Shown piece after piece: positions 14,351-59,265 of a stretch of DNA of 59,265 nt (position 1 is the stretch's first letter; every line of letters begins with the position of its first letter). The position numbers and the translations under genes are program-made. The stretch comes from Halorubrum saccharovorum DSM 1137 (GTDB lineage Archaea > Halobacteriota > Halobacteria > Halobacteriales > Haloferacaceae), in assembly GCF_000337915.1 (NCBI RefSeq), contig NZ_AOJE01000062.1, positions 1-59,265 of the forward strand. The letters are read 5' to 3'. The notes beneath the pieces are model-generated. The model ran no database searches, was not told where the DNA came from, and saw only the letters and a program-made list of their open reading frames with translations.

Positions 14351-14666
14351 GTGCGGTGGCGCGCGCCTTCGAGCGCCCGTCGGGCGCGAGAAGCGCGTGC
14401 GAGGGAGTCGCTGGCGGCTGCCGCCGCCAGCGACGAGGCTGGGGAGGTGTGAGGCTGCGGTGCGGTTGCGGTCAGGGTGGGACTCAAAGGGGCAGTCGCG
14501 AGGACGAAGCACGGCGCAGCAAGGACCACAGGGAGCGAGTGCAACGAGCGACCGAGGACCGCAGCAAGCCGTGCGAGTCCTCGCGACTGGGGCTTTGGAG
14601 GTGTTCCCCGTCACAGCGACTGCAACAACACATAGCCGAGCGACTGGGGCTATGGCGGTGTTCACC
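14351..14666 (+). repeat. Dispersed structured repeat, copy A (extended)
   Basis: The copy opens with gtgcggtggcgcgcgcctt. A perfect 12-bp stem follows (14407-14418 with 14423-14434, loop TGCC), then gaggctggggagg (14435-14447). A second module, absent from the other copies, is a long inverted repeat: a 13-bp perfect arm (14493-14505 with 14577-14589) plus an inner 7-bp arm (14509-14515 with 14568-14574). The right block ggggctttggaggtgttc (14589-14606) occurs twice; the second version is at 14646-14666. It fills the gap 14235-14711 apart from the PHP promoter. The right end lies about 45 bases from the stop of the minus-strand gene at 14712. Open frames across it are low-complexity and unlikely to be genes. 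Confidence 0.8.
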
Positions 14667-14711: not shown

Positions 14712-14978
14712 TCAGAACGCGCTCTTGCCCACCGTCTCCCGGTACGTCCCGGTACCGCGATGGCCCGCCTCGTCCCACGTGTCGATCGCGACCAGCACGC
14801 GGGTGTTCACGGCGTCGGCCGGCGCATCCTCGATCCGGAGCGTCGAGTCGCCGATGCGGGCGACGACCTCGCCGCCCTCCTCGCCGGTGACCATCACCTC
14901 GATCACGTCGCCGGGGTCGTAGTCGGGAGTCGATCCCCGGAACGACAGCCCGGCGAAGAACTTGTCGAAGCGGCTCAT
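14712..14978 (-). CDS. Small OB/TRAM-like protein
   Basis: An 88-residue acidic soluble protein starting MSRFDKFFAGL. The pattern YDPGDVIEVMVTGEEGGEVVA, then RIGDSTLRIEDAP and NTRVLVAIDTWDE, is that of a small five-strand beta barrel of OB or TRAM type. The start overlaps the stop of the upstream NhaC-type gene by four bases (ATGA), so translation is probably coupled. A role beside an ion transporter is not evident. The assignment of the fold is by eye. Confidence 0.7.
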   Translation of the reverse strand: MSRFDKFFAGLSFRGSTPDYDPGDVIEVMVTGEEGGEVVARIGDSTLRIEDAPADAVNTRVLVAIDTWDEAGHRGTGTYRETVGKSAF

Positions 14979-22988: not shown

Positions 22989-23063
22989 CCGGAGAGGTGG
23001 CTCTGTTGAAATACTATTCTTCAGATACATAATTGCCTGAAACAGCCAGTCGCTGAAGAGTGC

Positions 23064-23228
23064 TTACTGATACATCCGTTCGAAAACAGACTGTGTAACG
23101 ATTATAACGACGACGACGATCGTAAACCTCGACAACAGCCCAAAATCCGTCAGTGCCCGTAGGGCAACAAGAACAACGAGGGCAACCACAGCAGAGGCGG
23201 CTAGTTTCTGGTTCTCGCGGGAGACCAT
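23064..23228 (-). CDS. Tiny two-helix membrane protein (54 aa)
   Basis: This short frame starts MVSRENQKLAASAVVALV and ends in QSVFERMYQ. It has two well-formed hydrophobic helices (roughly residues 10-24 and 34-47) separated by RALTDFGLLSR, and charged ends. The pattern is protein-like and unlikely by chance. It lies in the low-G+C part of the accessory island, between direct repeats R1 and R2. The function is unknown. A longer overlapping frame on the same strand (23014-23301) has no such structure and is rejected. Confidence 0.5.
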   Translation of the reverse strand: MVSRENQKLAASAVVALVVLVALRALTDFGLLSRFTIVVVVIIVTQSVFERMYQ

Positions 23229-37638: not shown

Positions 37639-37871
37639 GCGGTGGCGCGTGCCTCCGAGCGCCCACGGGGCGCGAGGAGCGCCGCGCGAGGTCGCCGGCG
37701 CTGCGCGCCGGCTGCCAGAGGGACCTCCGGTCCCTCGCTGGAGTCGGTCGTCCGGAGCAACGCGGAGGACGACCGACGAGGCTGGGGAGGCGTGAGGTGC
37801 GGGGCGGTGCTGTGCGGGGCGGTGCTGTGCGGGGCGGTGCTGTGCGGGGTGGGGATTTGGAGATGTTCACC
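37639..37871 (+). repeat. Dispersed structured repeat, copy B
   Basis: The copy starts gcggtggcgcgtgcctccgag and contains a perfect 11-bp stem (37743-37753 with 37767-37777). Its sequence differs from that of copies A and C but it is followed by the same gaggctggggagg. Next come three tandem copies of a 15-bp unit gtgcggggcggtgct (37797-37841), then the right block ggggatttggagatgttcac (37851-37870). It fills the gap between mutL and the permease gene. The right block lies about 90 bases from the permease stop codon at 37958. Confidence 0.8.
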
Positions 37872-42672: not shown

Positions 42673-42760
42673 TAAACTTCGGTTCCTCGACGCGTGGTCG
42701 CGTTCGTCGCCGTCGACGTGTCGCGCGTTTTCTTGTAAACGACGACTGCCAGATCGACGG

Positions 42761-42894
42761 CGAACGCCGCCAAAGCCCGCACCGCATAGCCTCACCCCTC
42801 CCCAGCCTCGTCGCTGGCGGCTGTCGCCGCCAGCGACTCCCTCGCGCGTGCTCCATCGGCCGCACAGCGGCCTCGGAGGCACGCGCCACCGCAC
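42761..42894 (-). repeat. Dispersed structured repeat, copy C
   Basis: Read on the minus strand, it starts gtgcggtggcgcgtgcctccg (42894 downward). It then has the identical 12-bp stem of copy A (42810-42821 with 42826-42837; loop differs), gaggctggggagg, and the right block gcgggctttggcggcgttcg (42780 to 42761). It lies between converging genes. The right block faces the stop codon of the ATPase gene at 42672. Confidence 0.8.
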
Positions 42895-42948
42895 TGGCCA
42901 GGATTCAAAAATCGAGTTATAAGCCGCTTTGTCAGTCGCGTCAGCCCC

Positions 42949-58947: not shown

Positions 58948-59217
58948 CCGCGATCGCTTCCCCTCCGATTTTCACCCTCTGCCCTCCGTTTTCCGTCGTA
59001 TCGCCGACTCTACGCTTCGATCCGTTCGTCGCTCTGTTGACCTCGCTTCGTTTTTGACCCTGACTCGGTGGCCCGCGGTACCGCATCGACAGAGCGTATC
59101 GAACGACACAGACCGCCTGAATTGCCTCAGTTGTTTCTCGTCCGGAACGGGCAGCCGCCACAGGTGCTTCTCGATCGATAGCGGGAGTGAGTATTGCAGA
59201 TCGCCGATCGGGATTCA

Positions 59218-59262
59218 GTATTTAAATACCCGCGAGCGACGGCGACGATCGCTTATAAATAC
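59218..59262 (+). promoter_or_regulatory. Two TATA boxes pointing out of the window
   Basis: GTATTTAAATAC (59218-59229, a perfect palindrome) and CTTATAAATAC (59252-59262) lie 35 bases apart at the right edge, presumably tandem promoters of a gene just beyond. The preceding stretch 58948-59217 shows no gene. Confidence 0.55.
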
Positions 59263-59265
59263 AAC

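Follow-up and report, generated by a model that had tools for sequence, protein, structure and literature searches.

What is the structured repeat that occurs three times in 59,265 nucleotides of Halorubrum saccharovorum DSM 1137 (contig NZ_AOJE01000062.1, positions 1 to 59,265; the whole stretch analysed, hereafter the window), and does it act as DNA, as RNA, or as both? A preliminary description made from the sequence alone placed three elements with common parts at 14351, 37639 and 42761 and proposed an element of modular RNA or DNA structure that would be either a miniature piece of mobile DNA or an untranslated RNA. The three elements and their common parts were confirmed, the third lying on the minus strand. 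The proposal itself is supported, and both of its alternatives are probably true; transcription has not been shown.

Architecture of the element

The anatomy was derived by reading about 45 copies. The order of the element is P1, P2, the fixed linker GAGGCTGGGGAGGYGTGAGG, P3 and the right block, and the conserved core measures ~250–300 nt. At the 5′ end a TTTATAA-like box and GGTG precede P1, which has the form GCGCGYGCC-NNN-GA-GCGSCC...GGSCGC-GA-NNN-GCRYGCGC and is followed by GAGGGA. The sequence of P2 is swapped outright from copy to copy. A G-rich spacer separates the fixed linker from P3 (CAAAG-GGG-CAGTCGCGAGGAC ... GTCCTCGCGACTG-GGG-CTTTG), the inner part of which consists of 2-bp helices separated by tandem GA/GA mismatches. 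P3 reaches beyond its 13-bp stem as far as CTTTG, and the right block, GGGGCTTTGGAGGTGTTC, is therefore the 3′ strand of P3. In approximately one third of the copies with a right block, the block is repeated in at least one additional 57-nt unit. Tandem arrays of this unit lie 3′ of the core at loci L033, L041 and others; each unit has its own TTTATAA-like box, and up to six right blocks are seen in a single copy.

Copy A (14351–14666, plus strand) has the full-length core with two right blocks. It lies between a DUF7513 gene ending at 14712 and a PHP-domain gene starting at ~14306, both on the minus strand. P1 spans 14359–14400, with the tandem GA/GA mismatch formed by 14371–14372 and 14388–14389. 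P2, the exchangeable stem, spans 14407–14434 (12 bp) and is followed directly by the conserved linker GAGGCTGGGGAGGTGTGAGG at 14435–14454. The long hairpin P3 (14485–14597) is closed by CAAAG/CTTTG and contains a GGG/GGG 3×3 loop, the 13-bp stem (14493–14505 with 14577–14589) and the inner 2-bp helices split by tandem GA/GA. Right block 1 (14589–14606) is the 3′ strand of P3 plus a tail; right block 2 (14646–14663) belongs to a single repeat of the 57-nt 3′ unit.

Copy B (37639–37871, plus strand) consists of P1, two inserted hairpins, P2, the linker (37778–37797), an expanded short-repeat linker and the right block. It has mutL on one side and an ABC-transporter permease gene on the other. 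P3 is lost; between 37797 and 37855 it is replaced by a short tandem repeat of the GTGCGGGGCGGTGCT type. Copy C (42754–42896, minus strand) consists of P1, P2, the linker (42790–42809) and the right block (42762–42779), again with P3 lost. It is located between convergent ABC-transporter ATPase and glutathione-S-transferase-like genes, while A and B are upstream of minus-strand genes (PHP-domain and mutL, respectively). A perfect 12-bp stem, GTCGCTGGCGGC/GCCGCCAGCGAC, is common to copies A and C. The RNA folding z-scores are −5.1 for A, −3.3 for B and −3.0 for C.

The preliminary description had reported the 12-bp stem shared by A and C and, for copy A, a 13-bp inverted repeat together with two right blocks; all of this was confirmed. 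It had also regarded the long hairpin of copy A as extra, and here it failed. The 5′ strand of P3 is present in 177 of the 203 copies with a right block; B and C are therefore reduced forms, and P3 is a standard part of the element that these two copies have lost.

Covariation and strand polarity of the core

Through compensatory mutation the core keeps P1, P2, P3 and the fixed single-stranded motifs, across species and genera. Within this genome, 95.1% of the cells of the P1 alignment are paired and 48 cells show double changes, against 15.8 in shuffles. For P3 the corresponding values are 92.0% and 86 against 23.1, with double changes in 20 of 35 pairs. Neither of these alignments was fitted to the structure, and sliding the partner by 1–3 columns reduces pairing to 9–61% (P1) and 30–42% (P3). 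Across species and genera, P1 is 96.3% paired in 97 sequences (162 double-change cells against 36.5) and P3 is 94.6% paired in 71 sequences (375 against 104.7). Double changes occur in 29 of the 35 P3 pairs, and the slid controls are at most 45% paired. The cross-species alignments were fitted to models and are biased towards the structure; the structures themselves were derived from the same sequences that were analysed. Cores fold with a mean energy of −204.8, compared with −197.9 for equally GC-rich control windows. Folding energy says little in GC-rich DNA, and the case for the fold rests on covariation rather than on stability. Stem mutations that break pairing would have refuted the preliminary description; the opposite was found, compensatory changes keeping the stems.

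These data bear on the simplest alternative, that the copies are inert repeats (dead MITEs) and that their pairing reflects nothing more than recent common origin. In its favour, truncated or degenerate copies exist (B, C and several partial matches), as do near-identical recent ones. Against it, double-sided substitutions are far above the shuffled and slid controls in alignments of 97 and 71 divergent copies drawn from many species, and at sites with 93–96% identical flanks, stems have been replaced outright yet are still paired. We disfavour this explanation and regard it as very unlikely.

The stems are Watson–Crick blocks joined by tandem G-A/G-A mismatches. The GA/GA steps are invariant in P1 (35 of 35 copies) and nearly so in P3 (20 of 21 and 21 of 21). 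Among wobble pairs, G-U outnumbers A-C by 32 to 15. When 254 distinct cores were folded on both strands, the top strand gave 562 GA/GA 2×2 loops and the bottom strand 22, with 51 in 298 control windows. As tandem GA/GA mismatches are stable on one strand only, selection acts on the element as a single strand rather than on a double-stranded palindrome. The strand polarity is thus established by the data. That the single strand is RNA is an inference from the complexity of the conserved motifs, made without transcript data; a one-strand bias would also be expected from a fold of single-stranded DNA.

Spread, mobility and fixed sites

The family is dispersed and abundant. In a blastn search of its own assembly (3.42 Mb, 72 contigs) at E ≤0.001, copy C gave 46 matches, with E-values down to 9e-29 for other copies in the same genome, and copy A gave 63. 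The covariance model R1, which describes the 5′ domain, has 71 matches in this genome and 118 in G012, the closest relative; E-values from the short calibrations of the covariance models are rough. R1 matches were found in all 52 congeneric (Halorubrum) genomes searched and, more weakly outside the genus, in 18 of 47 genera in all; this cross-genus search scored at most 33 candidates per genome. Diverged members are present in Haloparvum, Halobellus, Halobaculum, Halorussus and Halosimplex. A search of species genomes for the exact linker returned mostly Halorubrum together with Haloparvum, Halobellus, Halorussus and Halosimplex, and several of these keep the order of P1, linker and P3-like hairpins. 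An absence of further copies in related genomes would likewise have counted against the preliminary description; dozens per genome were found across the genus.

Several simpler identities were rejected. Chance and coding explanations are ruled out by the copy number and the covariation. No phage record searched with copy A and no viral contig searched for the exact motif gave a match, and haloarchaeal plasmids gave four, none annotated under the match; a plasmid or phage origin was rejected on these results. One Halobaculum and one Halorubrum plasmid hold copies in unannotated intergenic DNA. With Rfam 15, no element in the window matched at the gathering threshold and copy A had no match at E up to 5; a known RNA family was rejected on this basis. 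The sole Rfam match in the window is an S15-Halobacteria ribosomal protein leader (RF03143; 16777–16847, plus strand, 71.6 bits). The open-access literature searched contained no description of the family. It appears to be undescribed; no Rfam family, phage record or paper that we found accounts for the elements.

The family is mobile and has spread recently in related genomes, as shown by near-identical copies at different loci, a version with inverted repeats, and empty sites. G012 contains groups of near-identical copies at unrelated loci (L325–L327 and L335–L338). Copies in these groups have common ends, the left terminal repeat CGGGAGTGAGTGTTGCAGATCGG and, ~433 bp away, ACTCCCG on the right. 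This mobile version is ~435 bp long and has terminal inverted repeats, CGGGAGTG, of ~45 bp. It occurs in several species with CGGGAGTGRGTGTTGCAG on the left and ACTCCCG on the right, 418–476 bp apart, and its ends are frequently extended outwards by GATCGATAG. No such repeats were found flanking copies A, B or C. There are seven arm matches in this genome, where most copies lack the inverted-repeat arms. At the end of the window (59164–59265, plus strand) lies one left arm of the mobile version, with its CGGGAGTGAGTATTGCAG inverted repeat, and the contig breaks where the core would begin. The same arm is found at the start of contig C61 (6–93), the assembly breaking at arm repeats in both places. 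In an arm search of five genomes, the loci examined held only short elements, and no transposase was recognised between the arms. Arms with little or no core are seen at L361 and L432. At L432 (G024, 1500–1640) the coreless arms have a single TTATAA, while copies with a core have two; this locus could represent an empty precursor, or it could have arisen by deletion between direct repeats.

When ~260 kb of this genome was set against the corresponding part of G012, all shared sites had the same orientation and other sites were occupied in one genome only. At one locus, congeners hold the element in either orientation. Three aligned empty sites confirm insertion or loss of ~450 bp; no clean target-site duplication was found at them, the junctions having diverged. 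TTATAA as a target duplication of the core, suggested by L432, was rejected because the empty sites at C15:50357, C15:90960 and C15:231591 have no single TTATAA at the junction. A further dispersed repeat end, GGCTCTGTTGAAATACTATTCTTCAGA...CAGTCGCTGAAGAGTGCTTACTGAT, is present in the window at 23005–23070. In several congeners this sequence sits immediately beside the inverted repeat of the mobile version, and it might be the end of an insertion sequence.

A possible alternative is that the fold works as single-stranded DNA, making the element kin in kind of the palindrome-associated transposable elements (PATEs), REPINs and IS200/IS605-type ends. A Y1 (HUH) transposase would read the one-strand hairpins during replication and move the element as a single-stranded DNA circle. 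The strand-polar hairpins and the lack of visible target duplication fit this mechanism, PATEs are abundant in the haloarchaeon Haloquadratum (PMC3119063), and the coreless versions, joined at TTATAA, recall the core deletions reported for PATEs, which are mediated by repeats. On the other hand, the mobile version has terminal inverted repeats, which are absent from PATEs. The core was found near only 1 of 30 TnpB loci in four genomes, which is the chance expectation at this density, and an association with TnpB or omega-RNA was rejected on this count. The long linear motifs and the GGG/GGG loop conserved between genera also exceed what hairpin recognition needs.

Some sites are long-lived, although their content changes. 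Among the congeneric loci compared, 21 of 30 at site A and 15 of 27 at site C contain a recognisable core, and its orientation never differs from that in this genome; site A is occupied in most congeners and site C in many. The remaining loci include some diverged or truncated copies and a few empty sites. The site A copy of G000 resembles the G012 copy at that site (85%, rank 20 of 27) no better than it resembles others, despite flanks that are 93–94% identical. Nearest neighbours came from the same genome in 38 of 66 cases, against 33.1 expected (347 of 2000 shuffles). Homogenisation within the genome was rejected, since nearest neighbours are not preferentially from the same genome, and exchange would therefore draw on a pool common to the species. 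The simplest reading, an inference, is that gene conversion or re-insertion exchanges whole copies or stems among sites and among species.

Gene neighbours, called with a simple codon-position gene finder, could be assigned for 44 copies, of which 20 lie between convergent genes, 8 between divergent genes and 16 between co-directional genes. The elements could in principle be cis-acting boundary devices, strong intergenic hairpins that stop or insulate transcription between neighbours. Such a role would explain persistence at fixed sites in a fixed orientation, and both the 20 convergent placements and the constancy of sites A and C speak for it. However, a convergent spacer is also where any mobile DNA can land most safely, approximately half of the copies lie elsewhere, and a copy is often missing at the site in a sister species. 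A boundary device would also have no need for conserved linear motifs or for GA/GA mismatches confined to one strand. We consider this role unlikely.

An exact TTATAA/TTTAAA box is located within 40 nt upstream of P1 in 50% of copies, compared with 0.9% of controls. Its spacing peaks at 9–11 nt before the GGTGG block and ~14 nt before the first P1 pair. The usual archaeal distance from TATA box to transcription start is longer than this. The box is unconvincing as the promoter of an RNA that starts at P1, the spacing being too short; it may instead mark a module boundary, or the transcript may start elsewhere. GGAGGTG was considered as an anti-Shine–Dalgarno-like partner and dropped, its positions varying among copies.

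Interpretation and comparison with known systems

On balance we favour, with moderate confidence, reading these as non-autonomous haloarchaeal mobile elements that carry a conserved structured RNA; transcription, the mobilising enzyme and the role of the RNA are untested. In this model the core (~250–300 nt) would specify a folded RNA read from one strand and would act as that RNA, not as single-stranded DNA. The element would be mobilised in trans by an unidentified transposase. Exchange with other copies would overwrite older copies at fixed sites, and this would account for the persistence of site and orientation despite changing sequence. Selection on the fold would imply that the RNA is needed either by the element, for its own mobility or for being tolerated, or by the host. 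A bolder version is conceivable, in which the family is a haloarchaea-wide class of mobile RNA genes. Each would encode a large folded RNA built mostly of tandem sheared G-A steps, with a conserved GGG/GGG loop and interchangeable stems. This RNA might take part in its own movement by serving a transposase or recombinase as guide, primer or bait, and might overwrite older copies at fixed addresses.

Should the RNA reading be true, the family would be among the most abundant haloarchaeal structured RNA families while missing from Rfam and from the papers we found, and a non-autonomous mobile element would have been held to an RNA fold over long times. A fold held so long would point to an RNA-dependent step in the life of the element, or to use by the host. 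With stems that change fast and keep their pairing, the family offers a natural experiment in RNA structure. Because its addresses stay fixed while their content is exchanged, gene conversion between dispersed repeats could be tested directly in haloarchaea that are amenable to genetics.

PATEs of Haloquadratum walsbyi are short, palindromic, abundant and transposase-free and make no target duplication (PMC3119063). The element resembles them in being haloarchaeal, short, non-coding and transposase-free, with many copies, palindromes and no target duplication visible at the three empty sites; deletion of the core between direct repeats and the company of other mobile DNA are further likenesses. 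It differs in the terminal inverted repeats of its mobile version, which PATEs lack, and in a core whose multi-helix architecture, covariation and fixed motifs are conserved across genera. No link of the core to IS605/TnpB ends was found. REP/REPIN and ERIC sequences are likewise dispersed, intergenic, palindromic and non-autonomous repeats with tens to hundreds of copies, whereas the present element is archaeal and has a much longer core, three helices, stems built with tandem GA and 3′ tandem units.

The omega-RNAs associated with TnpB include the haloarchaeal sotRNAs (Rfam RF02656/RF02657; PMC12558985). They too are structured RNAs specified by a haloarchaeal mobile element at many loci per genome, the RNA being inferred in our case. 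The present element, however, has no match to RF02656/RF02657 and does not adjoin tnpB, and what follows its right block is a conserved sequence, not a variable guide. It thus fails membership of the PATEs, by its inverted repeats and the lack of an IS605 link, and of the omega-RNAs, by the lack of tnpB and of an Rfam match.

In outward form the element also resembles MITEs: the mobile version is a non-coding unit of ~435 bp with terminal inverted repeats and multiple near-identical copies in congeners. Traits of this type here include lengths of 250–480 bp, intergenic and non-coding location, and 71 and 118 matches in two genomes. The interior of a MITE, in contrast, is not expected to hold an RNA-like fold in the long term. 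Here, moreover, no target duplication or parent transposon was identified and most copies in the genome lack the arms; the features of a MITE are seen in the mobile version only. We therefore classify the family as non-autonomous mobile elements whose core is conserved and RNA-like.
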